From: Anaerocolumna cellulosilytica
GTDB taxonomy: Bacteria > Bacillota > Clostridia > Lachnospirales > Lachnospiraceae
DNA length: 64,000 bases
Assembly: GCF_014218335.1 (NCBI RefSeq)
Contig: NZ_AP023367.1
Location: forward strand, 4,521,501 to 4,585,500
Direction of reading: 5' to 3'
Below are positions 1 to 46,384 of this stretch, piece after piece; within the stretch, counting starts at the first letter, position 1, and the number at the start of each line of letters is the position of its first letter. The notes under the pieces were generated by a model, which had not been told where the DNA came from, searched no databases, and saw only the letters and a program-made list of their open reading frames with translations. Both the position numbers and the translations under genes were made by a program.

Positions 1-1440
1 CGCTACCAGATGATTAACAATACGCATTTTATAATCCACGTACGAACGTACATGTATCACATCCCTGTTACAAAGACGATCTTTATTAATCAACGGATGG
101 TTCATGCAATTTATATCACTGTAATATGAATTAATTTGTGGAGAATATAACTCGAATTTTACCTTATTGAAGGCGCCATAATTCCTTTCATAAATAAAGT
201 CCTCTCTGCCCCAAAGTTCCAATCGAAGCATTCGTTCTTTCATTTCCTCAGTATTAAATGAGGACTCAGTCATTTCACGCATTTTATCAAATCTGTATCC
301 TATATAGCCTGCAAAAAGCTCATCAGCCCCTTCTCCAGTAAGTACAACCTTAATATTTTCATTCCTAACCTTCTCTGACAATGCCATCGATGCACAATTG
401 TATGTTTCCTTCAAAGGTGTTTCAGAATAATAAATTGCTTTAGAAAGCCTTTGGCTTATATCCTGCATTGTAAACATAATTTCATGGTGATCAAATTGAA
501 GCTTATTTGCTAAAAAGCGCTGGTATTTTGATTCTGATAATTCTTTATCAAGAAAATCTATTGAAAATGATTTATAAGAATTCTGTGGTCTTAAAATTTG
601 CGCCTTGCTCGCTACAATGGATGAATCAAGCCCTCCGCTTACATACAAACCAACAGGTACATCAGCTCTAAGCCTCAATTTTATAGAATTAGTAATAAGT
701 TCATCCAACCGTTCAATGTAATACTCCTCTCCTTTGTCCTCTATCTCACTTACTCCTGTCTCAGGATAGACTAAGTCCCAGTATTCTACTTCGTTAATAT
801 TTTGGTCTCTAATCTCCAAATAATGACCGTTATCAAGACTCCTTATGTTTTTAAACATAGTGCGGGATCCTATTAATCCAGGAAATGTAAAGATTTGATC
901 AAGACCAATAAGGTCAACTTCCCTTTTGACAGCGGGATGTTGTAATATGGATTTTATCTCAGAACCAAAAATAAAAAAATCATCAACAACCGTATAAAAA
1001 AATGGAGCAATACCAAAGTGGTCCCTGCCACAAAGTAAACTCCTTGTTTTATAATCAAAAATTACAAAGGAAAACTGTCCATTCAGATAATTAAACATAT
1101 CTCTTCCTTTTTCCTCATAAAGATGGATTAGCGTCTCTACATCGGTATTGGTTCTGAAAACGTGCCCCTTACACTCTAACAGTTTTCGAAGCTCAATATA
1201 GTTAAAAATCTCTCCATTACATATCATTACAATTGAACGGTCTTCATTAAATATTGGTTGTATGCCTCCGGTGAGGTCAATTATGCCAAGCCTTGTAAAA
1301 CCAAATGATATACTGCCATCATAATAAAAGTTCTCTGCATCCGGTCCCCTATGCTGTAATATCTTCGTCATAGGATATATAAGGGATTCCTCAATTCTCT
1401 TTTTAAATTTTAGATCAACAATTCCACAAATGCCGCACAA
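1..1440 (-). CDS. asnB: Asparagine synthetase B-type glutamine amidotransferase (C-terminus beyond window)
   Basis: Uses glutamine-derived ammonia and ATP to amidate a carboxylate, normally aspartate. About 480 residues are visible of a family that is usually 600-630 long. The start is a TTG directly after the stop of the upstream PKS gene, giving MCGICGIVDL; cleavage after Met exposes the Cys2 nucleophile of class II glutaminases. The N-terminal domain has the family motifs QHRGPD and NGEIFNY. The synthetase domain has the PP-loop SGGLDSSIVASK near residue 265 and GEGADELFAGY near residue 370. There is no ATG and no gap to the upstream gene, so it is almost certainly translationally coupled. 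It could supply Asn to the Asn-loading NRPS at 37-42 kb, or form an amide on the product. Family assignment is firm; substrate is inference. Confidence 0.95.
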   Translation of the reverse strand, partial: MCGICGIVDLKFKKRIEESLIYPMTKILQHRGPDAENFYYDGSISFGFTRLGIIDLTGGIQPIFNEDRSIVMICNGEIFNYIELRKLLECKGHVFRTNTDVETLIHLYEEKGRDMFNYLNGQFSFVIFDYKTRSLLCGRDHFGIAPFFYTVVDDFFIFGSEIKSILQHPAVKREVDLIGLDQIFTFPGLIGSRTMFKNIRSLDNGHYLEIRDQNINEVEYWDLVYPETGVSEIEDKGEEYYIERLDELITNSIKLRLRADVPVGLYVSGGLDSSIVASKAQILRPQNSYKSFSIDFLDKELSESKYQRFLANKLQFDHHEIMFTMQDISQRLSKAIYYSETPLKETYNCASMALSEKVRNENIKVVLTGEGADELFAGYIGYRFDKMREMTESSFNTEEMKERMLRLELWGREDFIYERNYGAFNKVKFELYSPQINSYYSDINCMNHPLINKDRLCNRDVIHVRSYVDYKMRIVNHLVA

Positions 1441-4400
1441 TTACTCCACCTCCAAATCCTCATTAAAATCACCCAATATTTTGTCATAATTACTGTCCAT
1501 CCAGTTCAATATTTCTTCAATCTTATTCTCAGGATTTCTCACTGCGTTACGTGCTATATTAACAAAATATTCTGAGAAAATCTTAATTGTCTCCTCCTTG
1601 AACAGCTTTACGTTATATTCAATAATAAAATAAAGTTTATTATTCCTAAAAAATCCTTCAATATTAATATCAAGCTTGGATGCCCGGTTCTTGAAAGGGA
1701 ATTGTTTTATAATAAGGTTTGATATTTTAAAATCCGGAATATCTACATTTTGAAATATGAAAATCATATCATATAGAGGGTTTCTGTTTATATCCCGGGA
1801 TAATTTAAGTTTTTCAATTAAATCATCAAAGGGGTAATCCTGGTTTTCAAACGCATCCATTACTATTTTGTTAACCCCAATTAAGAAATCAATAAATCTT
1901 TCGCTTTGTGAAATACTTTTTTTCAAAGGAAGATAGTTCAAAAAAAGTCCTACGATATTTTCCATATCGCTATGAGTCCTACCAGCTACCGATGTACCTA
2001 TGACAATCTCTTCACTTCCACCAATTTTGTTCAAAAGTAAATAAAACAGTGATAACAGGTATGTAAATAGCGTGATATTATTTGCATCTGCCATATCTTT
2101 TAGGTACATCGTAGTTTCTTCATCAAGTTCAAAATATAACTGCTCACCTTCAAAAGAAGGTATTTTAGGTCTTTCAAAATCTGTGGGTATATTACTCAAC
2201 GGTACGCCTTTAGCAAATTCATTAAGCCAAAAGCTCTCCTGGTTACCATAGATATCCCAAGTATTCCCCCGCTGCTGCTGCCATTCAGAGTAATCCCTGT
2301 ATTGGAACTTAAGTTCGGGTAGCTCTTTTCCTTCATATAGAGCCATAAATTCATCCATCAGAATCTGGATAGAAACTCCATCCGAAATGATATGGTGAAT
2401 ATCTATCATTAAGTAATGGTCATTTTCCTCTATTTTCACAAGATTTGCCCGAATTAATGGTGAATTGCTCAAGTCAAAAGGCCTTATAAACCTATATATT
2501 TCATCATAAATCTTTCCTGTATTTTCATCGCCAGTAGTTATTTCAGAATATTCTAATTTAAAAGGTACATTCTCCACAATTTTTTGCACCGGTGTATTAT
2601 CAACTAAAACAAATGCAGTCCTTAGACTTTCATGACGCTTCACCAAAACTTGAAAGCAGGTCTCAATCCTGTCTTTATCTATTACGCCAATAAGTTGCAG
2701 TACAAAGGGTAAATTATAATTGGTACTTGTCGTATTTATATTACTTGATATGTACATCCTTTTCTGATTTGAGGACAATGGATAATACTCTTTTATTTCT
2801 GATGTCTTTACCGGCTCCCATAAACTCTGATTTTGATTATTCAGGAAGTCAGCCACCTGCCTAATCGTAGGATTTTTTAAAAATTGAGACAATCCTATTT
2901 TCTTATTAAAGGACTTATGTATGGCAGATATAACACTTATAGCCTTCAAGGAATTTCCACCAAGCTCAAAAAAATCATCATCTATACCTATACGTTCATA
3001 TTTCAAATACTTCTGCCAAATAAGGAATATCTCACCTTCAATATAATTCCTAGGAGATATATACGAATTTTTAAAATTAGGTCTAGATTGCAACACATCG
3101 AACATTACCTCATTTGAAGGAGCTGCTTTATTTTCATAATGTCTGTTTATTTGCCACTGTTTCTGTCTTGACTGTAATTCACCAGTCGATATAATAATAT
3201 GTTCTTCCCCCAACAGCAACGCTTTTTCAAAAACCCTAATCCCCTCTTCTATATTTATTTCCAGGTCAGAAATACTAGTTTCCCAAGCTATCATTTCCTT
3301 GCTGCCCAAATTCCAGCCGTCCCAGTTTATGCATATCCATTGGGTTTTGGAACTATAGTTTTGGTAGTGTACAAATGCATCCATAAATGCGTTTCCTGCA
3401 GCATAGGCTGACATCCCTAAGCCACCCAAAATAGAGGAAATGGAGGACATGAGTACACAGAAATCAAGTTTCCTGTTTTTAAGTATATTTTCCAATACAG
3501 CCAAGCTATACACTTTCGAAGCGAAATGCTTTTCACAGGCTTCAGGTTCTAGTGATTCAATAACTTCATGCTGTTCTGTGATACCTGCTGCATGAATAAC
3601 TCCATTTAAAAGGCCAAAAGCTTTTTCGGAGATACTAAGTACATTTGCCATCTCCTCTTTATTTGAACTATCAGCAGAAAAAATCAAGACCTCTGCTCCT
3701 GCTGCCTCAAAATCTCTTATCTTTTGTATTTTTTGAGTAATCCCATCCTTTTTCCCATATTTGTCTATCCAGATATCCCATTGGTCTCTTGCTGGAAATT
3801 GAGTTCTTCCAGTAAGTATTAATTTGGCTTTATAATTCCTAGCTAGATATTCTCCTAAGGCAATCCCAATCTTACCGAGCCCACCGGTGATAAGATAAAT
3901 CCCGTTTTGTTTTAGTTTGGTTGCTTTGATATTTTCTACTTTTTTGTCCATTACCAAAGATTCAAACACAGGAATCCAACGCTTTCTTCCACGATAGGCT
4001 GTAATAGCACTGCTGTATTGACTTGATATCTCCTGATATAAAGTATCATTAAGTGTTTTTCCACCAGGATATAATTCATAATCTATAGGTATATCTAAAC
4101 AACTGCAGGTAATATTGGGGTTTTCTTGCGGAGCGATACAGCAAATACCTTTTAAAGTAGCCTTTTCTGGGTGATACAAGTCTTCACCAACTACATCAAA
4201 CATATTGTTAGTAATAACTTTTATATCAAACTTGTCAGAAACTATTGTTTTCGCTAGTGCCTGTATAATATATAATAAGCTGTAGAAACCTGTAACCTGT
4301 GCTTTTTGTATCCTTTCTACGTTTACTTCATGTTTAACAGTATTGGAAAGGTTCCATAAGTGAATCGCTTTATCCGGAAGCAAGCCGTTCTCAGACAATT

Positions 4401-25618: not shown

Positions 25619-26740
25619 CTAACAAGTTATTTTCGTAAGTAGACTGTTCCATTTACCGTTTCCCCTCAAGCTAAATAATCTTTCATCCGTTTCTAGCATT
25701 TTTACATTTTTCCAGCCCTCTTCAACCGCTTTTTCAAGATTTGTAAATGCAAGTTCAGATTTCCCAGCAAGCGCCCAAGAACACGCAGCATTATAATAAC
25801 ACCATTTTATATTATCTATTTCAGAAAAAATTTTAGAATTTATAACGCTGATAGCATTGATTTCTTTCATGTCGAATGCTTTCTGATAAAATTGTCCACT
25901 TTTTTTGTAATCCTTTGTCTCAGATAAATAATATTGACCATTTACGAGATAATTATCAAAACTATTAAACCAAGCATGATATGTACTATAGGTGAGTATT
26001 TTCTTGAAATTCAGTTTTTCAACAATTTTATACGATCCCATATTATTATTGCGGCAATGCCACGCTACCACCTTTATGCCTCTCGACTTACAGTAATTAA
26101 CCGCTTGTGAGACAGTAATCGTTCCATATCCTTTTCTCCTAAATCTATCATCTGTTTCTATACCAATTTCACATTCATCATTAAATACATTTTCAGATAA
26201 AGACCAACTCACAATCGTATTACCTATAATTAAACAAATTCCAAATCCATTCTCAAGAAAAAATTCCTTAGAAATCCAATTTTCATATATCCAATTTATT
26301 ATCTTATCAACATTTTCTAGTTCTGAACGCATTAAAAGATTGGAATCAACTCTAGCCTATAGTACCGCCGCTTGGTTTCCATCAAAGGGTTATAACAAGA
26401 TACATTTCTTACAGATTTATTCCAGTCACAAGATAATAATTCAATTTCAAAATCTAGAAGATTGTTCTTATTCATAGCCTATTGAAAAATTTCGTGATAT
26501 ATCACTTTTTGAAGTTCATTGTTAAAGTAATTATTATTTGCATCACCCAGCAAGAACATATCATGATAATAGCTCATAAAAAAGCTGTTTTAGGTTTTTC
26601 AATGGAATCAACGTATATTTTCCCAGGAAATTTTCGATTAATTATAGACTTTAAAATTAGTCTATGTTCATAACCAGCTAATAAGCATTCTACACTACTA
26701 AATTTTTCCTGATTTAATTCATAAAACAGAATAATCTCCC
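25619..26740 (-). pseudogene. Decayed copy of the neighbouring GNAT/ZmaR-like acetyltransferase
   Basis: The longest open piece (25619-26332, 237 codons) matches residues from about 170 to the end of the intact 402-aa acetyltransferase at 27.1-28.3 kb: the motif IGIETDDRFRRKGYGT, then YHAWFN and a TPR-like tail. Upstream, the missing N-terminal half is still recognisable but broken. FYELNQEKF...VDSIEKPKTAF corresponds to VYELNKKDY...VDSEVDPKTVF and ends at TGA. YYHDMFLLGD continues in another frame. A TAG interrupts EIFQ*AMNKNNLLDF (intact copy: DIFKQAKEKEDLLDF). After METKRRYYRLEL, an out-of-frame deletion of roughly 20 codons joins to the open piece. At least three lesions are therefore visible. 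The 237-codon piece has an ATG sharing bases with an upstream TAA, so a GNAT fragment could still be made, but no function should be assumed. Confidence 0.85.
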
Positions 26741-27117: not shown

Positions 27118-28326
27118 TTATCGTAAGACATTCAACATCTCTGCCCATCTACTATCAACTTTCAAACTTTGTAACCTTTCATCTTTTTCAAGCATATTTG
27201 CATCGTTCCATCCCGCCTCAACAGCTTTTTCAAGATTAGAAAATGCATCTTCATGCTCGCCTGCCAATGCCCATGCGCATGCTGTATTATAATAACACCA
27301 TTTTATATTAGCATCCTGTGAAAATATGCTGGAATCATGAAAATAACTATCGTTGCTATTTTTCATTTCAAATGCTTTTTCATAACACTCAGCAGCCTTT
27401 CGATAGTCTTGAGTTTGTGTCAGAAAATATTGACCATTTACCAAAAAATTATCAAATACATTAAACCAAGCATGATATGAATAGTAAATATTCATATCTT
27501 TAAAACCAACTTTTTCAGCTACTTTATATGAACCTATATTATTATCTCGGCAATGCCATCCTATTTTTACAAACCCCTTCTGTTTACAATAATTTACTAC
27601 TTCAGTTACAAGAATAGTCGCATATCCCTTATTTCTATATCTCTCATCTGTTTCTATTCCTATTTCACATTCAACATCTATTCGGTAATCAGAGATACAC
27701 CAACTAACAATACTCTCATCAACAACCAAGCAGAATCCAAATCCCTCTTGAAGAAAAAGCTCCTCAGATATCCAGCTATCCTCAATCCAATTGGTAATTT
27801 CATCAAAATTCTCAAGCTGTGTTCTTGTAAGAAAAAGTTTATCAATAAATTCAATTTTAGCATTATCAATATCTATATTTTGGGGCCTTTTTATATTGTA
27901 TTCAGAGAGTTCTAGCGAATAGTGTCTTCTTTTATGAAGCATTAATGAATTATTTTTAAATAAATCATCAATTATCTTTTTATTTTTATCATTGGTATCC
28001 AAATTACTATAAAATGGTCTTACATAGAAATCTAACAAATCTTCTTTTTCCTTTGCTTGCTTAAAAATATCCCCATATATTTTTTCTCTTAAGTTTTCAC
28101 AATATTCTTTGTTACCTTTTTCACCTAAAATAAAAAAATCATGACACTTATCCCATATAAAGACAGTTTTTGGATCCACCTCCGAATCTACAAGTACAAT
28201 CCCCGGAGTATGATTGCATAGTACTGATTTAACCGCAAGAGTACATTTATCTAAATTGAAATTCTGTAAAATAAGACCATAATCCTTTTTATTTAATTCA
28301 TAAACAGGTATCTTATCCACTTTCAT
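27118..28326 (-). CDS. GNAT N-acetyltransferase, ZmaR-like; candidate self-resistance
   Basis: 402 aa. The N-terminal half (1-165) has no clear motif but contains KTVFIWDKCHDFFILGE. A GNAT domain at about 170-290 has the acetyl-CoA loop region IGIETDERYRNKGYATI followed by GSYKVAEKVGF and YHAWFN. The last 100 residues look TPR-like (YYNTACAWALAGEHEDAFSNLEKAV). This layout fits the GNAT_acetyltran group that includes ZmaR, the enzyme that acetylates and inactivates zwittermicin A in its producer. Given the zwittermicin-like cluster around it, acetylation of an amino group on the product is the likely role; that is inference. GGAGG lies only one base before this ATG, so the GTG at 28320 (third codon) has better spacing and may be the true start. 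A decayed second copy lies just downstream. Confidence 0.85.
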   Translation of the reverse strand: MKVDKIPVYELNKKDYGLILQNFNLDKCTLAVKSVLCNHTPGIVLVDSEVDPKTVFIWDKCHDFFILGEKGNKEYCENLREKIYGDIFKQAKEKEDLLDFYVRPFYSNLDTNDKNKKIIDDLFKNNSLMLHKRRHYSLELSEYNIKRPQNIDIDNAKIEFIDKLFLTRTQLENFDEITNWIEDSWISEELFLQEGFGFCLVVDESIVSWCISDYRIDVECEIGIETDERYRNKGYATILVTEVVNYCKQKGFVKIGWHCRDNNIGSYKVAEKVGFKDMNIYYSYHAWFNVFDNFLVNGQYFLTQTQDYRKAAECYEKAFEMKNSNDSYFHDSSIFSQDANIKWCYYNTACAWALAGEHEDAFSNLEKAVEAGWNDANMLEKDERLQSLKVDSRWAEMLNVLR

Positions 28327-28369: not shown

Positions 28370-29446
28370 TTAAAACTTGTTTCTTTTCATCATTTTATTC
28401 CTATAAAGCTCCAATTGTTTTTTTCTTTTATCTAACAATTTTAATTCAAAAAATTGTTTCTTATAGCTCTCATATCTCTCGTAACTTAAAGAGCCTTCTT
28501 CTATAGCTTTAATAATTGCACATCCTGGTTCGTTATGATGCTGACAATCGTTATACTTACATTTGTAAGACAGCTCAATAATGTCCTGAAAGCTCTCGTC
28601 CAGACAATCCGTAGTCCCCCAGAGCTGCAATTCTCTGGACCCTGGAGTATCGATAAGCATACACCCTGAGTCATGCATTATGAGTTCAGAATATGTGGTG
28701 GTATGTCTCCCCTTACCAGTAGATTCACTTATTAATTTTGTTTGCTGGCGATTCTCACCAAACAAACAATTAATGATTGTTGACTTTCCTACCCCGGAAG
28801 ATCCTAGAAATACTACTGTTTTTCCAGGCTGCATATACTGAGTAAAAACATCCATGGATATACTTTTTAGAGCACTTACAATATAAACTGGTATTTTAAT
28901 TGCAACTTCCTCTACAAGCCGTAAGAAATCCTCAGGATTTGGACACTTATCTGCCTTATTCAGTATAACTACTGGTTTTACTCTGCTATTATATACTAAG
29001 GTAATGTAACGTTCTATTCTGCGTAAATCAAAATTGTTGTCAAGCCCGCATACAATAAAGGCAATGTCTATATTGGAAGCCATAACCTGTTCTTCTGTAG
29101 AGCCACCCTGTATTACCCCTTTTTTGATTTTTCTACCACCAGATATAGGCATTTTTCGTGAGAATTGACTTTTTCTAGGCAATATCCCATGTATTATTGC
29201 TTCATCTGATCCAATAATTTGAATTGCAACCCAGTCACCTATAGTAGGAATATCCTTGTTTGATTTTGCTACGTAGCAAAGCTTTCCAGATGGCTTTGCA
29301 GTAAATATACCGCTTTCACATACTACCTTATAAAAACCTTTCTGTCGTATAATTACACGTGCTTGAAAATAATTTTTATGTGCGTATTCCTTAAACCCTT
29401 CCTCAAAAAAAATATCCCAACCATATTGAATTATATTATAAATAAT
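28370..29446 (-). CDS. rsgA: RsgA-type circularly permuted GTPase, probable extra copy, non-standard start
   Basis: RsgA checks 30S subunit maturation using GTP. The circularly permuted order is visible: NKAD (G4) first, then SALK, the P-loop GSSGVGKST, the GKGRHTTT switch and DTPGSRE (G3). A C-terminal zinc-binding cluster follows (CKYNDCQHHNEPGCAI). The first ATG (29182, MPRKSQF) would remove the OB-fold, yet the same frame runs upstream through GDWVAIQIIG and YGWDIFFEEGF, a normal RsgA N-terminus. No ATG, GTG or TTG exists in that upstream part; an ATT near 29446 sits behind GGAAGGGG. Full length would be about 358 aa, normal for the family. The location inside an antibiotic cluster suggests ribosome protection or a bystander role; neither is shown. 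Confidence 0.8.
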   Translation of the reverse strand: MIYNIIQYGWDIFFEEGFKEYAHKNYFQARVIIRQKGFYKVVCESGIFTAKPSGKLCYVAKSNKDIPTIGDWVAIQIIGSDEAIIHGILPRKSQFSRKMPISGGRKIKKGVIQGGSTEEQVMASNIDIAFIVCGLDNNFDLRRIERYITLVYNSRVKPVVILNKADKCPNPEDFLRLVEEVAIKIPVYIVSALKSISMDVFTQYMQPGKTVVFLGSSGVGKSTIINCLFGENRQQTKLISESTGKGRHTTTYSELIMHDSGCMLIDTPGSRELQLWGTTDCLDESFQDIIELSYKCKYNDCQHHNEPGCAIIKAIEEGSLSYERYESYKKQFFELKLLDKRKKQLELYRNKMMKRNKF

Positions 29447-29589: not shown

Positions 29590-30828
29590 CTAAAGACTTA
29601 TAAATTTGCCATCTAAAACATGTCTTAGCTTTTCATGTGTGAATTCTATTGGTGCTTTTTTTGCTTCCATAATTGATATAACCATATTAATTGCTTGTAA
29701 TATCTGACTCTCTGAAGGTTCACTTCTACTTGTTAGTATCTCCATATACATTGCTTCTATAACTTTATATGGAATGACTACACCTTTTTGATACTCTTCA
29801 TAATTGAAATTGTAATTTCTTGTACTTGTTGCTACCTTCAAACACCTTTCAATAACCGGCAAGTATTCATTCTTCCTTATAAACAGCATATTTTTTAGTT
29901 CGTCGCACCGTTCGTAATTATTAAAAGAATATGGCGTAAGTTTTGATGTGATTTTTTTAATTAAAAATTTCAAGACATCTTTAGGACCTATTTCTATTAC
30001 ATATTTGACATTATTGTCAACCAGATAAGTGACAGATTCCTGCCACTTAATGGGAGATATAAGCTGTTTAGATAAATTATCTATGACCGATTCTGCACCG
30101 ACATAAGGAAGCGTACTGTAATTGGATAACACCTCATAAATAGGAGGATTGTAGCTGTATTCCCGTAATACAGCTTTCATTTCATCTGCTGCTCTAATCA
30201 TTAAAGGTGAGTGAAACGGTCCTGACATTTTTAGCGGATAAACAATTGCTCCTCTGCTTTCCAAACATTGCGTCAATTTCTTTATAGAATTATTGTCCCC
30301 CGAAACTGAGCACTGCGTTGGAGAATCATATGCAGAAATGTATACTTCACTGCCGCTTTCAGAGAACTCTTTGCATATCTCCTCTACTGTTATACTATCA
30401 ATGTTTATTGCCCATATCATTGTTCCATCGCATGAGGAAATTGTTTCTTTGATTATTCTACCTCTTTGTTTTACAATTTGAAGAGTATCTGAAAACTCTA
30501 TTACTCCACTTGCACACAAAGCTGAATATTCACCAAGGCTGTGCCCAAGACAGTACGATGGACTTAAACCTATTTCTTTCTGAAAAACCCTATATATTGC
30601 AATACTAGCAGTAACCAACGCTAATTGTGAAATATCTATTTCATTTAATTTATCAGCAGAATCTTTTGAAAAACAAATTTTTTCCATATTCACTTTTAAT
30701 ATATCACTTGCTTCCTCAAAGGTTTCTCTAGCCACTGGGGAGTTATCGTAAAAACTCTTGGCCATTGCCGTATGCTGTGATCCAACCCCTGGGAAAACAA
30801 GTGCAATTTTGGGATTTATTCTCCTCAT
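29590..30828 (-). CDS. Free-standing (trans-acting) acyltransferase
   Basis: 412 aa, FabD-like malonyl-CoA:ACP transacylase fold. Motifs: GVGSQ near residue 15, the nucleophile GHSLGEYSA near 95, QRGR with its Arg about 25 residues later, and GPFHSPLM with the catalytic His near 200. About 100 C-terminal residues extend beyond the usual FabD core. Two of the three PKS modules in this window have dead AT domains, so this protein is the obvious supplier of their extender units. Free-standing ATs with this job are known from trans-AT PKSs, and ZmaF of the zwittermicin cluster is a free AT reported to handle aminomalonyl-ACP. Its place next to the extender-unit cassette supports use of an ACP-bound rather than CoA-bound substrate. 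Which unit it takes cannot be read from sequence. Confidence 0.93.
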   Translation of the reverse strand: MRRINPKIALVFPGVGSQHTAMAKSFYDNSPVARETFEEASDILKVNMEKICFSKDSADKLNEIDISQLALVTASIAIYRVFQKEIGLSPSYCLGHSLGEYSALCASGVIEFSDTLQIVKQRGRIIKETISSCDGTMIWAINIDSITVEEICKEFSESGSEVYISAYDSPTQCSVSGDNNSIKKLTQCLESRGAIVYPLKMSGPFHSPLMIRAADEMKAVLREYSYNPPIYEVLSNYSTLPYVGAESVIDNLSKQLISPIKWQESVTYLVDNNVKYVIEIGPKDVLKFLIKKITSKLTPYSFNNYERCDELKNMLFIRKNEYLPVIERCLKVATSTRNYNFNYEEYQKGVVIPYKVIEAMYMEILTSRSEPSESQILQAINMVISIMEAKKAPIEFTHEKLRHVLDGKFISL

Positions 30829-30912: not shown

Positions 30913-32493
30913 TTACAATAATACTAACGCCTTACGATCAACCTTCCCATTCATTGTTATTGGGAAATCCTTCATCAATACAAAATCATTGGGAATCATA
31001 TAATCAGGCAGATATGTTCTTAAAAATTTTTTCAGTTTCTGAACTGCCAGTTCACTATCTGTAGTAAGTATATATGCTTTTAACACAGGGTTGATGCTGT
31101 CTGCATTTATTAATGCAACAATACATTGACTAACTGATTCGTACTCACAAATTTTTGCTTCTATTTCCCCAAGTTCAATTCGAAGTCCCCTGATTTTTAC
31201 CTGATTGTCCATTCTTCCCAAATAATCAATATTCCCATCATGCATAAGGCATGCATAATCCCCAGTCCTGTAAACCATTTCTCCTCTACCTCCCAAACCA
31301 TCTACAAATTTTTCATTTGTCAGTTCAGGTTGATTTAAATACCCTCTAGCTAATCCAACACCAGCGATGCAGAGCTCTCCTTTTTCCCCAGGAGACAAAA
31401 GACAAGCTTCTCCCAAAATGTACATCGCTGTATTATCAATAGGTTTTCCAATAGGTACCTTGCTTATTTCATCATCAAAGGGACAATCATAATATGTTAC
31501 ATCGACCGTTGCTTCCGTAGGTCCATATAGATTAGTCAATCTTGTTCCGTTGATTTGTCCTAATAATGTATTAAATTTTTTAACATGAATAGGGGTTAGT
31601 GCCTCACCACTGCAAAAAATATGTTTCAATGTTAACAGCTTTGTACTATAATCCTCATTACATATATAATTAAGAAAAGAATTGAACATAGAAGGTACAA
31701 AATGTATAATGGTTATTTTGTTTTTCTCAACCTCTTCAATTATACCTTGAGGAAATCTTTCAAATCCTGGCTTTAGCATACTTACTTTTGCACCTGTTAT
31801 AGACCACCAAAATAGCTCCCATACAGATACGTCAAATACAAACGATGTTTTTTGTAATATTGTATCATAGTGTGTAATCGGATACCTTTTTTGCATCCAG
31901 TTCAACCTATTAACAACCGAGTGTTGCTCAACCATAACACCTTTTGGATTACCAGTTGAACCTGATGTATATATAATATACATTAAATCATTAGGTCTCA
32001 CCGTATCTGCATAACTGCATTCTGGCAGTTCATAATTAGATTCATCATCCAGGTTTATACAGATTTTATCAAACCCGCTTATTCTGTGTATTGTCTTGCT
32101 CTGCCCTATAAAGCAGCTTGGATTACTATCAGAGACTATATAATCGATTCTTTTTTGGGGATACTCAGGTGAAATAGGCAAGTAAGACGCCCCATATTTT
32201 AATATGCCGTAAATACCAATTATCATCTCCAAAGAACGTTCAACCATAATACCGATTATCCCATTCTTTTCAACTCCACTTAAATGAAGAGCATATGCCA
32301 GTTGCCCTGCCTTTTTGTTCAACTCTCTGTAGGTAAGTTCCTCTTCACCAAAGATGACTGCTTTTGCGTCAGGTGTTTTTTCAGCTTGTGCTTCAAATAA
32401 CTGGCATATCGTTTTATCCTTCGGATAAGAATGTGTTGTGTCATTTAACTTCTTATATATACTATCTATGTCCTGCTTTTCACATATATTCAT
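30913..32493 (-). CDS. Free-standing serine adenylation enzyme
   Basis: 526 aa, a lone A domain without carrier domain. Core motifs: LTYREL near 50, YTSGSTGNPKG near 175, NLYGPTEATVD near 325, YRTGDYA near 410, and the C-terminal lysine motif MNGKVDRKAL at the end. The binding-pocket residues read D-V-W-H-F-S-L-V-D, the known serine signature of EntF. It sits directly after an acyl-CoA dehydrogenase and a carrier protein. The same arrangement is known for ZmaJ, which loads Ser onto a carrier protein for oxidation to aminomalonyl-ACP. The likely partner is the carrier protein at 33692-33946. Confidence 0.93.
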   Translation of the reverse strand: MNICEKQDIDSIYKKLNDTTHSYPKDKTICQLFEAQAEKTPDAKAVIFGEEELTYRELNKKAGQLAYALHLSGVEKNGIIGIMVERSLEMIIGIYGILKYGASYLPISPEYPQKRIDYIVSDSNPSCFIGQSKTIHRISGFDKICINLDDESNYELPECSYADTVRPNDLMYIIYTSGSTGNPKGVMVEQHSVVNRLNWMQKRYPITHYDTILQKTSFVFDVSVWELFWWSITGAKVSMLKPGFERFPQGIIEEVEKNKITIIHFVPSMFNSFLNYICNEDYSTKLLTLKHIFCSGEALTPIHVKKFNTLLGQINGTRLTNLYGPTEATVDVTYYDCPFDDEISKVPIGKPIDNTAMYILGEACLLSPGEKGELCIAGVGLARGYLNQPELTNEKFVDGLGGRGEMVYRTGDYACLMHDGNIDYLGRMDNQVKIRGLRIELGEIEAKICEYESVSQCIVALINADSINPVLKAYILTTDSELAVQKLKKFLRTYLPDYMIPNDFVLMKDFPITMNGKVDRKALVLL

Positions 32494-32522: not shown

Positions 32523-33695
32523 TTACATTTTAACGGCTTTTCTCTCTGAGTTTCTATACTTTCTCACAAAACTGTTTCCTAGTATCATTTCTATAATCTG
32601 ATTACTTCCTTCAATTATTTCAAGTACTTTAGTATCCCTGTAATACCTTGCCACAGGATGAGATTCATTACAACCTACAGCCCCATGAATCTGTACAGCA
32701 TTATCTGCATGTTGCCGTGCCGCCCTAGTAGCAAAATATTTGGCTATTATAACATTTTCAGCCGAACTAGGATTATGAATATCCTTAGCATGGCATGAGT
32801 GTATGCATAAATGGCTAGCTGCTTCGTAATCCACTCCCATTTTTGTAATCATTTCTTTTATTGTACTCTGAGATATTAATTTTTCCCCAAACGTTTTTCT
32901 TTTTAGAACATGGCTGCCACAATATTCAAGGCATCCCCTTATAATACCCAGTGCCGTGAATGCAACACTAATACGTCCGTATTCTAACGCATACGGAGCT
33001 ATATGTGAAAATGCAAAGCTCGGTTTAGCTAGTATGTTTTCCTTGTTAATTTCACAATTATTGAATTCCAACACTGCTAATGCACCGGCTCTAAAGCCAA
33101 TCATGTTTTTAATTTGGATCACATTGAATCCAGGTGTATTCTTTTCTACTATTATAGCGGTTGCTTTTTCATCTTCGCCGTTTATTTTACCAAAAACAAT
33201 GAATACATCTGCCAGACCTCCAAACGTTATCCACCTTTTGGTTCCATTAATGATAATCTTATCTCCTGCCTCAGTAAATGTAGTAGTGATGCCCTTGATA
33301 TCACTACCTGCTTCTGGCTCAGTTAACGAAAAAGCTCCAAGTACTTTACCCTGTGTCATGGAAGGCAGCCATTTTAGTTTCTGCTCTTCGGTTCCCCATT
33401 TAAGTATTGATCTCATAACCATGGTATGTACATTAAATAAACCGACTAAAGATGTACTAGCTTTAGCTACAGCCTCAGTAAAAATACCATATGTCAGATG
33501 ATCCCAGCCCAGCCCGCCAAACTCTTCCGGCATTATTCCGCCAATGTATCCCGCTTCTACGCATTTATCTATAGTTTCTCTTGGTATAGACTCATTCATT
33601 TCCCATTCACATGCAAAAGGCTGAACATTAGATTCAACAAATTTTCTGAATTCTAAATATTTTTCCTTATGCTCTTTTGAAAGCAATTCTATCAT
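32523..33695 (-). CDS. Acyl-CoA dehydrogenase-type flavoprotein of extender-unit synthesis
   Basis: 390 aa, full-length acyl-CoA dehydrogenase fold. Visible family features: GAFSLTEPEAGSDI near 135, KRWITFGG near 165, and the C-terminal HGAVGCNESHPVARYYRD with a nearby EGSNQI. It overlaps the upstream carrier-protein gene by four bases (ATGA), so the two are translationally coupled. FkbI, ZmaE and ZmaI are relatives that oxidise a carrier-bound glyceryl or seryl aldehyde to the malonate-level thioester. Here it would complete oxidation of the hydroxy- or amino-substituted C3 unit on ACP. Only one such gene is present although two carrier proteins are, so it may serve both. Confidence 0.92.
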   Translation of the reverse strand: MIELLSKEHKEKYLEFRKFVESNVQPFACEWEMNESIPRETIDKCVEAGYIGGIMPEEFGGLGWDHLTYGIFTEAVAKASTSLVGLFNVHTMVMRSILKWGTEEQKLKWLPSMTQGKVLGAFSLTEPEAGSDIKGITTTFTEAGDKIIINGTKRWITFGGLADVFIVFGKINGEDEKATAIIVEKNTPGFNVIQIKNMIGFRAGALAVLEFNNCEINKENILAKPSFAFSHIAPYALEYGRISVAFTALGIIRGCLEYCGSHVLKRKTFGEKLISQSTIKEMITKMGVDYEAASHLCIHSCHAKDIHNPSSAENVIIAKYFATRAARQHADNAVQIHGAVGCNESHPVARYYRDTKVLEIIEGSNQIIEMILGNSFVRKYRNSERKAVKM

Positions 33696-33946
33696 CGATT
33701 GTCGTCACCTTTCTTTTCACATACAAACTCTGTAATATTGTTAATACACCTATAATTGTCCATATCTAAATCACTTGTAGTTATTTTAATTTCAAAGTTT
33801 TTTTCAAGAAATGTCATCAATTCTATTGCAAATAAGGAACTTACCAATCCCTCTTCAAAAATGTCCATATCATTATCTATACTATCTATGTTTACACTAT
33901 CTAAGACATATTTCTTAATTATTTCAGCAACTGCATTGTACTCCAT
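33692..33946 (-). CDS. Free acyl carrier protein for an extender unit (copy 2)
   Basis: 84 aa from the ATG at 33946, which has GGGAGG at good spacing; an in-frame TTG at 33964 would overlap that site. The phosphopantetheine site is the Ser of GLVSSLFAIEL, the FkbJ/ZmaH-type pattern. It lies between the hydroxyacyl dehydrogenase and the acyl-CoA dehydrogenase and overlaps the latter by four bases. Position next to the serine adenylation gene suggests it carries the seryl/aminomalonyl unit; that division from the other carrier protein is inference. Confidence 0.9.
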   Translation of the reverse strand: MEYNAVAEIIKKYVLDSVNIDSIDNDMDIFEEGLVSSLFAIELMTFLEKNFEIKITTSDLDMDNYRCINNITEFVCEKKGDDNR

Positions 33947-33983
33947 AATAATAAAACCTCCCAAATCTATTGAATTATATTAT

Positions 33984-34835
33984 TTAATAATTATAAAAGC
34001 CCTTACCAGTCTTCCTTCCAAGCAAGTTCGCATCAACCATCTTTCTTAGCATTGGGCAGCACCGGAATTTAGTATCCTGATAACTGTCATACAGTACATC
34101 CAAGGAATTAACAACCGTATCCAATCCAATCAAATCTGCGGTCTCTAAAGGTCCCATTTTATGTCCATAACATTTTTTGAAAATCTCATCTACCTGCATT
34201 GGTGTTGCCACACTGTCCTGCACTACGAAAGCAGCCTCATTCATAAACAAGTGGGAAATCCTGTTTGTAACAAATCCCGGCAAATCATTTACAAGAACCA
34301 CTTCTTTTTTCATTTGAGCAAGCAATGCTTTTGCATTATCTATACACTCTTCTGAGGTGTGGTATCCTCTGATTGCCTCTACACAACTTTTTAAATAGGA
34401 AGGATTCATAAAGTGTATTCCTATTACTTTATCCGGACGATCTGTAACGTTTGCCACCTTTGTAACAGAGATACAAGAAGTATTAACCGCATAGTTAACT
34501 TCTGGTTTGCACACTTTAGTCAATGCCCGATAGACGCTCTCCTTCACTTCCCATTTTTCTGGTACATTTTCTATAATAAATTCAGCAATACTTACATCTT
34601 CAATTTTATTGGTAAATGTAATCCTACTTACCACATCATCTACATTCAACTTTGGTAATGAAGCATTTGCTAGTGGACCAAAGCGAATTATACGGATTAT
34701 TTCAGTTTTTGCCCTTTCAAGTGCTTCTGGAGAACTATCTACAAGTATACAGTCCATTTCATGAAACAGCAGATCTGCAGCTATTCCTATGCCCATAGTC
34801 CCTGCACCAATAATACCGATTTTATTATATTTCAT
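33984..34835 (-). CDS. 3-hydroxyacyl-CoA dehydrogenase-type enzyme of extender-unit synthesis
   Basis: 283 aa. N-terminal Rossmann loop GIIGAGTMGIGIA, followed by ENVPE and NTSCISVT in the middle, HFMNPSY with the catalytic His, and NRISHLFMNEA plus GPLETADLIGLD in the helical C-terminal domain. This is the FkbK/ZmaG family: it oxidises the primary alcohol of a carrier-bound glyceryl or seryl unit to the aldehyde. Start ATG follows AGGAG. It sits between two carrier-protein genes, which suggests it may act on both. Length and motifs are normal for the family. Confidence 0.92.
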   Translation of the reverse strand: MKYNKIGIIGAGTMGIGIAADLLFHEMDCILVDSSPEALERAKTEIIRIIRFGPLANASLPKLNVDDVVSRITFTNKIEDVSIAEFIIENVPEKWEVKESVYRALTKVCKPEVNYAVNTSCISVTKVANVTDRPDKVIGIHFMNPSYLKSCVEAIRGYHTSEECIDNAKALLAQMKKEVVLVNDLPGFVTNRISHLFMNEAAFVVQDSVATPMQVDEIFKKCYGHKMGPLETADLIGLDTVVNSLDVLYDSYQDTKFRCCPMLRKMVDANLLGRKTGKGFYNY

Positions 34836-34906: not shown

Positions 34907-35158
34907 TTATTTACACTTTTCCTTGTTCTTCAAATACCTAACTATACTATTGACCGAGGTGAAGTTTGACAATTCCATTTCATCACTTTCAACAGTGATA
35001 CAAAACTCACTCTCCATATAATTCAATAATTTCATCGCAAAAAGCGAGTTTACAAAGCCCATTGAGAAAATGTTGTCTTCATCTGAAAAGTTGATTTCCT
35101 CATCATATTTAATTAAATTATCTTCAATAAATTTTCTAACTTTTACTTTACTATCCAT
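34907..35158 (-). CDS. Free acyl carrier protein for an extender unit (copy 1)
   Basis: 83 aa, phosphopantetheine Ser in GFVNSLFAMKLLNYME, start ATG behind GGGAG. It is clearly related to the other carrier protein at 33.7 kb (same V-x-S-L-F-A pattern) but differs at most other positions. It follows directly after the FkbH-like gene, so it probably receives the glyceryl unit that becomes hydroxymalonyl-ACP. Confidence 0.9.
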   Translation of the reverse strand: MDSKVKVRKFIEDNLIKYDEEINFSDEDNIFSMGFVNSLFAMKLLNYMESEFCITVESDEMELSNFTSVNSIVRYLKNKEKCK

Positions 35159-35192: not shown

Positions 35193-36221
35193 CTATTTAT
35201 TTTCTACCCTTACATACGATGGGTAATTTTGAATAATCGACAAATCATTACTAAGAACAGTAATTCCTTCTTCATTTGTAGAAACTTCTTTAAAGTTTGC
35301 AAATTTGTAAGTTACATACATCATTTTGTTTCTATCCGTCTTTTTAAAATCAGCAAGCAAAATTTTATTGCTATATTTTGCCATTTTCATAATATATGAC
35401 AACAGTATAGTCCCCACTCCCCTTGACATTACCCTGCATGACATAAGAAGCAGTTTTAAATGGATGCTGAACTCGTTAATTTCCAGTAAAGCCAACCCTA
35501 TTTTCCCATAAGAACCATAACGGTCAATAAGTTCACATACCAATAGCCTATGATTGTCCGAGGATCTGTAATTATTTAATTCATCATAACTGTATGTATA
35601 ACCAGTGGCGTTAAGCTGATGTGTCCTTTCAGTCAATTCTATTGCTCTCATTAAATCTTCTTCCTGTGCCTCAGATATAACAAACGTCATATCTAAAGAT
35701 GCTAGAAAAGCCTCAGAGGTACCATTAAATGACTCTTCCTCTTTCTGTCTTTGTATATCCTCAACATACATAAGACGTCGCCTTTGTGCATCTTTTGTTA
35801 TATATTTGTGTTGCAGACGAGCATTGTTAAGTAATGAATCATATTCCAATGCATCAATACATGTAATCTCTGGGTGCACATACTTTACTTCTTCCCTTTC
35901 AAATAACTGGTCATCAATAAACACCATTGAGTCAATACCAATATTAATGTTTTTTTGAATATTTGATATCGATACAGATTTAGCATTCCAATTGATTTCA
36001 GGAAAAAGAAAATACTCTGCTAAACTAAACTCAAACAATTTTCGCATAGCATCGTCATAGTTATTTCTACTTGCTATGGATTGGAGGATTCCTCTCTTAT
36101 CTAATTGCTTTATAATCTCAATTATCCCAGGTTTTAATGAAACATTATTGTTTTCCAGTAAAATCCCATCCCATAATGTGTTATCTAAATCCCATATAAT
36201 ACACTTTATTTCTTTATTCAT
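35193..36221 (-). CDS. FkbH-like glyceryl transferase/phosphatase (HAD family)
   Basis: About 342 aa. The HAD signature DLDNTLWDGIL lies ten residues from the start, with FIDDQLFEREEV near 115, then a GNAT-like C-terminal half; this is the FkbH family layout. FkbH proteins take 1,3-bisphosphoglycerate, place the glyceryl group on a carrier protein and remove the phosphate. An ATG at 36233 is in frame, but GGGAG lies inside those first codons and points to the ATG at 36221 (MNKEIKCI), where homologues usually begin. No O-methyltransferase (FkbG) gene is present in the cassette, so hydroxymalonyl rather than methoxymalonyl is expected. Confidence 0.92.
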   Translation of the reverse strand: MNKEIKCIIWDLDNTLWDGILLENNNVSLKPGIIEIIKQLDKRGILQSIASRNNYDDAMRKLFEFSLAEYFLFPEINWNAKSVSISNIQKNINIGIDSMVFIDDQLFEREEVKYVHPEITCIDALEYDSLLNNARLQHKYITKDAQRRRLMYVEDIQRQKEEESFNGTSEAFLASLDMTFVISEAQEEDLMRAIELTERTHQLNATGYTYSYDELNNYRSSDNHRLLVCELIDRYGSYGKIGLALLEINEFSIHLKLLLMSCRVMSRGVGTILLSYIMKMAKYSNKILLADFKKTDRNKMMYVTYKFANFKEVSTNEEGITVLSNDLSIIQNYPSYVRVENK

Positions 36222-36222
36222 A

Positions 36223-36311
36223 CTAACTCCCATCTGTGTGCCTTAACACACATACAAATCAGGAGGTTGAAAAACTTCTTGTTTTTTCAACCTAACTCCC
36301 ATCTATATGCC
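36223..36311 (-). repeat. Duplicated start-site repeat flanking an 11-bp hairpin; possible 19-codon leader ORF
   Basis: A 20-bp near-identical repeat (ctaactcccatctgtgtgcc at 36223-36242; ctaactcccatctatatgcc at 36292-36311) holds the ribosome site and first codons of the FkbH-like gene. Between the copies is a perfect 11-bp inverted repeat (36264-36274 / 36283-36293, loop 8). The upstream copy opens a 19-codon frame, MGVRLKKQEVFQPPDLYVC, ending at 36243, just before the real gene. It could be a local duplication, an mRNA-stabilising stem between thioesterase and extender cassette, or a leader peptide. Confidence 0.55.
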
Positions 36312-36358: not shown

Positions 36359-37072
36359 TTAGAAATCATAAGATAGTAATACTTTATTTATTAATTTAAC
36401 AGTATCTTCTGCTTTCTCATTAATAAAGAAATGTCCTCCATCAAATTTATAGATACTGCATTTACCCAAAGTACAATTCTTCCACGCCTCCAAATAGTTA
36501 TCATTTAAATCATTATCCTGCTTACCGCTTAAAACTGATATATCAAACTCAAATTTCGTATTTTTATGTACACAATCATATGTTTCTAATATCTTATAAT
36601 CCGCTCTTATAATTGGAATAAATGTTTCAATAAAATCATCGTTTTTCAATAATTCTTCAGGCGTTCCTCCAAGATTTCGTATTTCGTCAATTAAAACCTC
36701 CAAAGGCGCATCATGAAAGTTCGGTTTTTTCTTTTTTTCAAATGGAGGATGTAATCCGGAAAAAAAAACATGTTCCGGATTATGTAAACCTTCTTTTTTG
36801 AGTCTATGAATTAATTCATAGACAATAACACTCCCCATACTATGTCCGAAAACTGCATAATCTGAGTCTCGTATCAATGGACTTACCGTATTATAAACAT
36901 CATTAATAGCTTCTTCCATATTCTCATATTTTGGCTCCGAAAATCTTCTTCCCCTTCCAGAAAGTTCGACAGAATTAAGCTGTATGGAATTATTCAAATA
37001 TTTATCCCAGTTTCTATAAACCTGCATACTGCCACCTGCGTATGGTATGCAAATTAGTTTTATCTTCCTCAT
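36359..37072 (-). CDS. Type II (editing) thioesterase
   Basis: 237 aa alpha/beta hydrolase. Features: IPYAGGS near residue 10, the nucleophile motif GHSMGS near 80, the Asp in the SGKQDNDL segment, and the catalytic His in FDGGHFF near 213. These are the marks of GrsT/SrfAD-type enzymes that strip wrong or stalled acyl groups from carrier proteins. It lies just after the prodrug NRPS and before the extender-unit cassette, as expected for a helper of the assembly line. No chain-releasing type I thioesterase is present in the window. Confidence 0.93.
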   Translation of the reverse strand: MRKIKLICIPYAGGSMQVYRNWDKYLNNSIQLNSVELSGRGRRFSEPKYENMEEAINDVYNTVSPLIRDSDYAVFGHSMGSVIVYELIHRLKKEGLHNPEHVFFSGLHPPFEKKKKPNFHDAPLEVLIDEIRNLGGTPEELLKNDDFIETFIPIIRADYKILETYDCVHKNTKFEFDISVLSGKQDNDLNDNYLEAWKNCTLGKCSIYKFDGGHFFINEKAEDTVKLINKVLLSYDF

Positions 37073-45266: not shown

Positions 45267-45521
45267 TTAACTTTCGTTGTTCTTAATCTTCTCCTTTACA
45301 TATTCACATAAAAGGCTTAAGGAAGTAAATTTGTTGTAATCAAGATTTACATCATCAAACTCAAAACCAAATTTATTTTCTAATGTAATAACTAATTTTA
45401 TAAAAGATAGCGAATTCATACCCAGTTGTATCAAATTGTCATTTTCCTGCAAATACTCATATGCATTATCTACAAAACTATTTTCCGAAATTGCTTCAAT
45501 AATTAATTCTCTAACATTCAT
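45267..45521 (-). CDS. Free acyl carrier protein, first gene after the leader
   Basis: 84 aa from the ATG at 45521, eight bases behind AGGAG; a GTG two codons earlier overlaps that site. Phosphopantetheine Ser in GMNSLSFIKL. It is unlike the two extender-unit carrier proteins and closer to carrier proteins that hold starter acyl chains. It may deliver the fatty acyl group to the starter C domain of the prodrug NRPS, but no acyl-activating enzyme is adjacent. It is the first gene downstream of the terminator in the leader. Confidence 0.88.
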   Translation of the reverse strand: MNVRELIIEAISENSFVDNAYEYLQENDNLIQLGMNSLSFIKLVITLENKFGFEFDDVNLDYNKFTSLSLLCEYVKEKIKNNES

Positions 45522-45700
45522 AAACACTGCTCCTTGTAATGTACATTTTATGTTTTTTATCTGTATAAAAATTTATTCTATTGTAAGCAAATGAATTTTT
45601 CTGAATAATTTACTCTTAAGGATTAATAACAAATCAATTATCAATTAAGCTCTGTCATCTATTTATACATGTTATATGTTACATAGCATTATTATTTATC

Positions 45701-45764
45701 AAAAAAAATATAGCTCCGCCCAATCAACTATTCAATTGAATACTCTACAAGGACGTTGCTATAT
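45701..45764 (-). terminator. Intrinsic terminator inside the operon leader
   Basis: On the transcribed strand, AUAUAGC (45764-45758) pairs with GCUAUAU (45714-45708). After an AA/GA internal loop, CGUCC (45755-45751) pairs with GGGCG (45721-45717). A run of U (45708-45701) follows immediately. The long loop holds a 14-bp palindrome (tattcaattgaata). It lies between loaP and the rest of the operon, exactly where a LoaP antiterminator would be needed. Confidence 0.75.
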
Positions 45765-45778
45765 GTTCCTTATCATCT

Positions 45779-45804: not shown

Positions 45805-45856
45805 TTTTGATAAGTGCTTACATCAATTTTTAAATGCAAACTCAGTTTAAATAGAA

Positions 45857-46384
45857 TTAAATCTTTTCTAATACTTCCAAAGCAACAGATAAACGCCTGT
45901 TGTCACCCATCATAAAAACTTCTATTATTGCCTCACGCTTATGTCTATTTATCTTTTTAATTTTACTTTCCATTCCCATTAATACTCCAGAAACGACCCT
46001 AATCTTATCCCCTTCAATATATCCAACAGAATGTTCAATACAATAATCTGAACCCATAATTTTATTTAAATATACCCGCTCTTCTTCTCTTAACCTTATA
46101 TCATATTTATTCTCGTAATGTAAGAACAAGTATACATCTTCTATACACTGCATAATTGGAAATACAAGTTTTATAAATTCATTCTCTTCATATTTAGACT
46201 GAATAAAAACATATCCTGGAAAGCAACTTTTTTTTTCTATATAAGTAATACCTTTTTGCTTAAATACAACTTTTTTCATAGGGATAAATGGCAAGAAATA
46301 TTCATTGTTAAGTCTCTTTTGAAGTATCTTCTGTATCTTTTCTTCACAACCCGTTCTTACATATAGTATATACCAATTCTTCAT
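45857..46384 (-). CDS. loaP: NusG paralogue, LoaP-type processive antiterminator
   Basis: 175 aa. An NGN domain opens with WYILYVRTGCEEKIQKIL, with CFPGYVFIQ near residue 65, and the C-terminal KOW domain reads EGDKIRVVSGVLMGMESKI. These are NusG family features, but this copy heads a secondary-metabolite operon instead of sitting with secE/rplK. LoaP of Bacillus velezensis lets RNA polymerase pass terminators in long polyketide operons. The terminator and hairpin just downstream fit that scheme. Start ATG follows GGGGGTGG. It has its own consensus promoter and would be the first gene of an operon at least 45 kb long. Confidence 0.93.
   Translation of the reverse strand: MKNWYILYVRTGCEEKIQKILQKRLNNEYFLPFIPMKKVVFKQKGITYIEKKSCFPGYVFIQSKYEENEFIKLVFPIMQCIEDVYLFLHYENKYDIRLREEERVYLNKIMGSDYCIEHSVGYIEGDKIRVVSGVLMGMESKIKKINRHKREAIIEVFMMGDNRRLSVALEVLEKI

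Follow-up and report, generated by a model that had tools for sequence, protein, structure and literature searches.

A 64,000-nucleotide stretch of the Anaerocolumna cellulosilytica genome (the window; G000:C1:4521501-4585500, G000 being the window's own genome, 5.43 Mb in one contig) carries the 5' portion of an 86-kb operon that most probably directs the production of a peptide-polyketide antibiotic of the amino-polyol type, built in the form of an N-acyl-D-Asn prodrug by the steps proposed below. The whole operon spans 86,160 bp of the minus strand (G000:C1:4481725-4567884), with approximately 40 kb of it located to the left of window position 1. A first-pass annotation of the window had listed the cluster from position 1 onward, and examination of the leftward extension carried the operon on to G000:C1:4481725; all the cluster parts named in that annotation were recovered by analysis of open reading frames (ORFs) with Pfam and NCBIfam, all on the minus strand. 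The cluster is a large and apparently intact variant among the amino-polyol pathways that employ an acyl-D-Asn prodrug, a kind of cluster that is already known. The features that a specialist would not expect are the extension of the assembly line by modules with trans-acting acyltransferases (ATs) and, above all, the linked paralogue of the GTPase RsgA.

Prodrug loading and the peptidase-exporter

Biosynthesis would begin on a loading nonribosomal peptide synthetase (NRPS) that makes acyl-D-Asn. This protein, recognized already in the first-pass annotation, consists of condensation (C), adenylation (A), thiolation (T) and epimerization (E) domains (Table 1); the A domain carries the code DLTKIGEVGK, which we take to specify Asn, and the TIGR01720 domain presumably marks the E domain. 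The first C domain contains the motif HHIISDG and might accept a fatty acyl group. At the other end of the pathway, a peptidase fused to an ABC exporter would export the chain and remove the acyl-D-Asn, leaving a free N-terminal amine and the active drug. The best match of this protein in the PDB is 7mdc (E 2.2e-63), with the ClbP peptidase entries 4e6x and 3o3v ranking fourth and fifth, and the exporter fusion is recognized by TIGR01194 (311 bits, cut-off 286.2).

Residue-level alignment to 7mdc bears out both the assignment to the ClbP/ZmaM type and the prodrug reading. The catalytic set of ClbP, S95/K98/Y186 (the roles of K98 and Y186 being our assumption), corresponds to S95/K98/Y197; the D-Asn contacts E92, S/T188, H/N257 and N331 correspond to E92, T199, N269 and N340; and the transmembrane residues W460 and W466 to W469 and W475. 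Passages of PMC9889268 describe prodrug peptidases as having S or T at position 188, H or N at 257 and a strictly conserved N331, and delineate a ZmaM-like subset, approximately 1,100 aa long, in which the peptidase is joined to an ABC exporter. Two substitutions weigh against the assignment, namely Leu (L247) in place of ClbP K235 and Ala in place of F462. In ClbP, K235 holds E92 by a salt bridge, with family-wide conservation not being stated in the passages concerned, and the F462A replacement did no harm (PMC9889268).

Genomes were compared in a class sample (391 genomes) and a nearer-relative sample (145 genomes), both including the window's own genome, and in a phylum sample (299 genomes). 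At 1e-100, the peptidase profile matches 8 of the 391 class genomes, and full-length exporters are encoded in 6 of the 391: the window's own genome (two copies), G343, G383, G279, G505 and G341. Those of G279 and G505 belong to other prodrug clusters. Among the nearer relatives, 12 of 145 match the peptidase at 1e-30, the 11 non-self matches covering only residues 7-501 (the peptidase and transmembrane part). Close named relatives were sought in species genomes as well, and the 10 loci obtained in the peptidase scan were all weak (at most 33% identity over part of the protein); likewise, none of the 84 plasmid matches to the peptidase-exporter covers 80% of its length.

Extender units, assembly line and chain release

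The aminomalonyl/hydroxymalonyl cassette proposed in the first-pass annotation is complete: genes for the FkbH-like enzyme, acyl carrier protein (ACP), 3-hydroxyacyl-CoA dehydrogenase (HCDH), second ACP, acyl-CoA dehydrogenase (ACAD) and A domain follow one another at 30913-36233. In this cassette, a glyceryl unit loaded by the FkbH-like enzyme would be converted to hydroxymalonyl-ACP, and Ser activated by the free A domain would be converted to aminomalonyl-ACP. The hydroxymalonyl branch agrees with the properties of the cis-AT of module 4 (gene 2593; the polyketide synthase (PKS) and NRPS genes are designated by protein length), which would take hydroxymalonyl-ACP: its best PDB match is ZmaA-AT (4qbu, E 7.7e-73), followed by CurL (2.2e-49), and it retains the motifs for ACP-bound extenders, that is, GYSLG, with the Tyr present in ZmaA-AT and ZmaF, and the hydrophobic ACP-contact motif. 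Passages of PMC4207774 link the GYSLG-type Tyr and the hydrophobic contact site to ACP-bound extender units, identify ZmaA-AT as the hydroxymalonyl-ACP AT and give the motifs of ZmaF as GYSLG/IAI/GPFH.

The ATs of module 3 (gene 3524) and module 6 (gene 1878) lack the active Ser, and the free AT reported earlier, AT1, would feed these modules. Because AT1 has GHSLG and its best structural matches are of the FabD type, its proposed role in aminomalonyl transfer is drawn from gene context. Two observations count against this role: the motifs of AT1 are GHSLG/IVY/GPFH vs GYSLG/IAI/GPFH in ZmaF, so that the Tyr-bearing motif differs; and FabD-type malonyl transferases rank first in the PDB search. 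A further point against the proposed scheme as a whole is that the AT of the third PKS module, dead here, is live, ZmaA-like and equipped with GYSFG in G343 and G383, the two genomes with related clusters described below. A doubtful but serious alternative is that the modules with dead ATs take plain malonyl from a second free AT (AT2, GHSLG/APFH) located downstream among the trans-AT modules, yielding a product with fewer amino and hydroxy groups. Against this alternative, the AT1 gene follows immediately on those for the Ser A domain and the oxidases within the cassette, in the window as well as in G343 and G383, and AT1 has the GPFH of ZmaF and a hydrophobic contact motif.

Domains were called with Pfam and additional hidden Markov models, and A codes were read against the GrsA reference and checked on 1amu; the amino acids given for the codes are those we take them to specify, not computed predictions. 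The three hybrid megasynthases reported in the first pass (1441-25564) are open frames of 1878, 2593 and 3524 aa without an internal stop, and their domain order and codes (Table 1) reproduce the order acyl-D-Asn / X / Gly / PK / PK / Ser / PK / next residue, where PK is a polyketide unit. This first half of the line would build X-Gly-PK-PK-Ser-PK, and four NRPS modules and the trans-AT half would then extend the chain. Beyond the window, the gene for an Asn-synthase-type protein is followed by A(DVRHLALLAK)-T-C and by gene 3157, with the order half-C-A(DSELTAEVCK, Tyr-like)-T, C-A(DLSHIGFVWK)-T, C-A(DILQMGMIWK, Gly)-T. Next come KS-DH-KR-T-C-A(DIFHMGMIWK)-T, AT2 and KS-KR-T (KS, ketosynthase; DH, dehydratase; KR, ketoreductase), and the line ends with KS-DH-KR-T-C-A(DIFHMGMIWK)-T and KS-KR-T-BtrH-like. 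Altogether, there are 10 A domains and 7 PKS modules, with the second half forming a trans-AT line. A point against the proposed pathway is that we know of no match for four of the codes (DVTNIALIYK, DVRHLALLAK, DLSHIGFVWK and DIFHMGMIWK).

A decaying and silent pathway appears improbable. Such decay could explain the loss of the active Ser from the ATs of modules 3 and 6, the RsgA gene without a normal start (see below) and the second GNAT acetyltransferase copy, which is 57% identical to the 402-aa GNAT and has lost its 5' half, with N-terminal pieces scattered over 26204-26723 (tblastn); the decay of this copy also counts against the pathway as proposed. Yet every megasynthase frame is open, the Cys-His-His set is kept in 7/7 KS domains and the TGGxGxxG, SS and YxxxN motifs in 7/7 KR domains, the peptidase retains its catalytic and D-Asn-contact residues, and the AT of the first PKS module, module 3 here, is dead in G343 too.

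A half-C domain precedes the Tyr-like A domain (gene G000:C1:4508341-4517814) both here and in G343/G383, and in all three the C domain that ends the protein before the Tyr-like module reads HHxxxDA. Half-C starts are also found in G279 and in a second prodrug cluster of the window's genome, ahead of other A codes, and HHxxxDA also occurs before a Gly module.

Chain release would probably be the task of the BtrH-like domain, which comprises the final 343-383 residues, C-terminal to the last PKS module, and would use Cys, His and Asp to hand the chain to an amine; transfer to an amine is presumed by analogy with the name-giving BtrH enzyme. The assignment is weakened by a Pfam score of 27.3 bits, under the cut-off of 29.7, and by the lack of an NCBIfam match for this domain. 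A profile of 15 BtrH-like relatives matches BtrH_N structures at E 1.8e-4, and 15/15 sequences have the Cys, Asp and His without variation. Such matches are found in 13 of the 391 class genomes, and the domain also ends megasynthases in G343 (4256 aa) and G434 (3718 aa). Separately, plasmid NZ_CP117836.1 of Alkalihalophilus pseudofirmus has a BtrH_N gene whose neighbours are an ACP/HCDH/ACP/ACAD/FkbH/AT cassette and a single large gene of PKS type; the FkbH match on the Alkalihalophilus plasmid was set aside as a different cluster type.

The embedded RsgA paralogue as candidate self-protection

The GNAT and the RsgA paralogue embedded in the operon are the most likely candidates for protection of the producer. 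For RsgA in particular, we tentatively propose, at somewhat less than even confidence, that a dedicated GTPase protects the producer's own 30S subunit in this prodrug amino-polyol pathway of an anaerobe. The window protein belongs with the RsgA/CpgA/YjeQ 30S-assembly GTPases: it scores over the TIGR00157 cut-off, and in its frame of 365 codons the OB, circularly permuted GTPase and Zn parts are complete in the alignment, with GTPase and Zn motifs kept. The genome encodes two further RsgA proteins over the cut-off, 36% and 28% identical to the window copy. In the tree, the window copy groups with the other cluster copies, from G343 and G383, and with that of G510 (89/89, below the starred level), apart from the two other copies of its own genome; the tree does not show the cluster copies to be monophyletic, since G510 falls among them.

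A profile was built from the window and G343 copies, and five candidates were scored per genome. At 1e-90, it matches 15 of the 391 class genomes. The best scores are those of G343 (793 bits), G383 (758), G000 (755) and G510 (509), followed by values of at most 364; the scores of G343 and G000 are raised by construction because both copies are in the profile. Among the five candidates scored per genome, more than 500 bits is thus reached in only 4 of the 391 genomes, the three found with the cluster and G510. With the window copy, the RsgA of G343 shares 55.4% identity, that of G383 54.3% and that of G510 55.0%; the remaining 12 copies in the tree reach no more than 42.5%, and the G760 copy has 44.3%. 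G760 is the best other genome in the phylum sample (387 bits), and the 20 kb around its gene contain no NRPS or PKS.

Strong RsgA copies also accompany the cluster elsewhere. In G343, the gene lies behind the BtrH-ended megasynthase gene, and in G383, it lies close to where the contig ends in an ORF carrying a BtrH-like domain. Of 11 genomes from the genus of G343, 2 have RsgA at 1e-110, the same two that have the FkbH cassette, loading NRPS and peptidase. As controls, we took 8 of 11 lower-scoring genomes (G275, G467 and G519 left out) and two further loci; none of these 10 RsgA loci has NRPS or PKS domains nearby, the loci ranging from 3.7 to 20 kb, so that the short ones say little. Given these controls and the two other RsgA genes in the genome, we rejected the possibility that the window gene is an ordinary chromosomal copy. 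Since G343 and G383 are close kin, the linkage of RsgA to the cluster represents two lineages, not three. Taken together, the position of RsgA inside the operon and the rarity of strong copies suggest 30S self-protection.

It is possible, if rather doubtful, that the embedded RsgA has no part in self-resistance and is instead a metabolite-proofreading phosphatase, like Bacillus subtilis CpgA/RsgA on 4-phosphoerythronate, or a passenger. In favour of this reading, the FkbH of the operon uses a glycolytic phosphate compound. The G383 copy adjoins dehydroquinase II and ROK kinase genes, and the window copy has ATT where the aligned N-terminus would call for ATG, GTG or TTG, whereas the G343 copy has ATG; the missing start counts against self-protection as well. 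In passages of PMC6449344, CpgA acts as a phosphatase on erythrose-4-phosphate and 4-phosphoerythronate in addition to its other role, and cells that lack it become more sensitive to antibiotics directed at the ribosome and the wall. Three findings speak against a phosphatase or passenger: RsgA is linked to the cluster in two lineages at differing sites (within the operon in the window, after the gene with the BtrH end in G343/G383); the best RsgA outside such a cluster, that of G510, is directly followed by an APH-family kinase gene, as would be expected of a resistance cassette; and strong RsgA is not general in the genus of G343. G510 itself has no NRPS or PKS within 60 kb of RsgA and no full-length exporter in its genome.

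RsgA is named among the assembly factors of the 30S decoding centre in a passage of PMC9032327, and PMC9290621 includes rsgA a single time among the translation genes that it tabulates for screening producers; among the papers surveyed, mostly by title, none was titled for RsgA as self-resistance. If RsgA does protect the producer, it would point to the 30S subunit, and specifically its decoding region, as the drug target, naming the likely target ahead of the compound, and rsgA beside biosynthetic genes could then guide the search for antibiotics against the 30S subunit in anaerobes. The acetyltransferase of the first-pass annotation is present as the 402-aa GNAT, assigned at family level only (PF12746).

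Operon control, related clusters and known systems

Of the 26 gaps between genes of the operon, 24 are shorter than 150 bp; the exceptions measure 785 bp, with the decayed GNAT half inside, and 329 bp, the leader. The operon starts at its right end with the gene for a LoaP-type antiterminator, one of three LoaP copies over the cut-off in the genome, and is probably under LoaP control. The leader folds into a terminator-like hairpin (fold of 45697-45830, z -3.10, with 1 of 200 shuffles equally good), which a simple terminator scan did not list. In passages of PMC12691694, LoaP of Bacillus velezensis reads through such leader terminators using a UNCG hairpin; in the leader here, a count of UNCG hairpins restricted to stems of 6 or more pairs gave none, which weakens the case for LoaP control. 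Another LoaP gene (G000:C1:1785000-1804999) lies about 7 kb upstream of an AT-like gene (FPGQGSQ start), and this locus is probably another PKS cluster.

Table 1. Features of the operon within the window
Feature	Position	Strand	Evidence and remarks
loaP, encoding a NusG-family antiterminator; opens the operon	45857..46384	-	NCBIfam NF033641 antiterm_LoaP, 156.4 bits (cut-off 125)
Leader RNA hairpin ending in a U run, terminator-like	45701..45771	-	Downstream of loaP and ahead of the first biosynthetic gene
Discrete ACP	45267..45527	-	Pfam PF00550
ClbP/ZmaM-type D-Asn peptidase fused to ABC exporter, 1042 aa	42059..45187	-	Pfam Beta-lactamase and ABC_tran
Small ORF, 91 aa	41760..42035	-	No Pfam or NCBIfam match
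Loading NRPS, C-A(Asn)-T-E, 1504 aa	37165..41679	-	Code DLTKIGEVGK; TIGR01720, 138.5 bits (cut-off 74.2)
Thioesterase, probably type II	36359..37072	-	Pfam PF00975, 1.9e-40
FkbH-like glyceryl-ACP loading enzyme (hydroxymalonyl branch)	35193..36233	-	TIGR01686, 253.2 bits (cut-off 146.65)
Discrete ACP	34907..35158	-	Pfam PF00550
HCDH-type oxidase, extender cassette	33984..34835	-	Pfam 3HCDH
Discrete ACP	33692..33964	-	Pfam PF00550
ACAD-type oxidase, extender cassette	32523..33695	-	Pfam Acyl-CoA_dh
Free A domain (aminomalonyl branch)	30913..32493	-	Ser code DVWHFSLVDK
Free acyltransferase AT1, proposed aminomalonyl-ACP AT	29590..30828	-	Pfam PF00698; motifs GHSLG / GAIVY / GPFH
RsgA-type 30S GTPase paralogue	28370..29443	-	TIGR00157, 150.6 bits (cut-off 100); between AT1 and GNAT
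GNAT acetyltransferase, 402 aa, candidate self-resistance	27118..28326	-	Pfam PF12746
Second GNAT copy, 5' half decayed	25619..26723	-	237-aa ORF at 25619-26332 and scattered N-terminal pieces
NRPS/PKS, 3524 aa	14990..25564	-	C-A(DVTNIALIYK)-T, C-A(DILQLGMIWK, Gly)-T, KS-deadAT-KR-T
PKS/NRPS, 2593 aa	7126..14907	-	KS-AT(hydroxymalonyl type)-KR-T, C-A(DVWHISLIDK, Ser)-T
PKS/NRPS, 1878 aa	1441..7077	-	KS-deadAT-KR-T, C
Asn-synthase-type amidotransferase, 623 aa	1..1440	-	TIGR01536, 444.2 bits (cut-off 267.1); crosses window position 1

An Asn-synthase-type gene (55% identity) adjoining an A-T protein recurs in G434, where the code is DPRHLALLAK vs DVRHLALLAK here, and the gene and the neighbouring A-T protein are probably one functional pair. 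A DUF5717 gene is located close to the left end of the operon. When compared with a plasmid collection, the GroEL of the genome is nearest to that of Vescimonas fastidiosa (66.6%), whereas the DUF5717 protein has no match; Vescimonas and DUF5717 are both clostridial, which would fit a clostridial host. Just beyond the right end, at 48986-52743 of the window, are two rhamnogalacturonan-lyase-type genes, which suggests that the host degrades plant polymers. An Rfam scan of the window gave no match.

The closest relatives of the cluster are those of G343 and G383, which share the loading NRPS (65-66% identity), the cassette and AT1 (58-71%), PKS 2593 (54%), RsgA (54-55%), the peptidase (42%) and, at the same place, the GNAT (34%). 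In both, the first X code is DVTNFAIIYK and Ser and Tyr-type codes are present; an Asn code was read in G343 alone, the loading NRPS of G383 being partial. Unlike the window cluster, these two have the loading NRPS gene before the peptidase gene (the order is peptidase-loading NRPS here), one A domain instead of two ahead of the first PKS module, a gene of U32 type, RsgA at the 3' end and, following the second Ser, an E-like domain; the G343 line totals 8 A domains and 5 KS. In the stretches of G343 and G383 that were read, no ORF had an Asn-synthase-type gene as its best match. The sharing of loading, peptidase and extender cassette within another line marks the window cluster as a variant of a known cluster kind. 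The last megasynthase of G343 (G343:C1:1043000-1062999), a single 4261-codon frame, has two FkbH-like stretches (about 30% identity) where A domains would be expected.

Other candidates proved more distant. No such extender cassette was seen at the peptidase locus of G341, in 20 of its 41 kb, or at that of G384, in 40 kb; G389 was left out of this comparison. FkbH cassettes also occur in G530, G279 and G532 (100, 20 and 20 kb read), all of which lack a strong RsgA; they were rejected as the same cluster type because the adjoining HCDH (53-60% identity) and ACAD (39-41%) belong to other clusters. The second acyl-D-Asn prodrug cluster of the window's own genome (G000:C1:2025341-2081542) also holds a standalone BtrH-like protein and B12-radical-SAM, U32 and AAT-type enzymes. 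Its peptidase-exporter is 57% identical to the window copy, vs 42% for G343/G383, and the relationship is reversed for the loading NRPS (39% vs 66%); these opposite affinities are a sign of gene swapping inside the genome.

Among known systems, the zwittermicin A cluster (zma) of Bacillus cereus is the obvious comparison, with acyl-D-Asn loading, a ZmaM-type peptidase-ABC protein, a free AT, a GNAT, the FkbH/HCDH/ACAD/ACP/Ser-A cassette and a hydroxymalonyl-type AT nearest to ZmaA-AT in common with the window; that zma has the cassette genes and the GNAT is our assumption. The window has one ACAD gene, and zma presumably two. These likenesses might be taken to mean that the operon makes zwittermicin A or another known compound, which we consider very improbable. 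Features of the window cluster that set it apart from zma are the dead ATs of modules 3 and 6, the modules of Gly and Tyr type, the trans-AT half, the BtrH-like end, the Asn-synthase-type gene, RsgA and LoaP. Zwittermicin is built from nine units (PMC4207774, Figure 1 legend), vs 10 A domains and 7 PKS modules, that is, 17 units with other residues, here; the module count rules out zwittermicin A itself and agrees with the first-pass annotation that the line differs from it. No such clostridial product appeared among the papers surveyed, and the product, set apart from known compounds by those papers and by our general knowledge of them, is probably new.

The prodrug peptidases ClbP (colibactin), XcnG, AmiB, EdeA and PamJ have the same D-Asn signature as the window peptidase and serve different assembly lines; the window protein differs in carrying an ABC exporter, a fusion seen in the ZmaM-like subset. 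The operon would extend the acyl-D-Asn prodrug strategy and the rare aminomalonyl and hydroxymalonyl units to what are probably Clostridia and join them to a trans-AT line.

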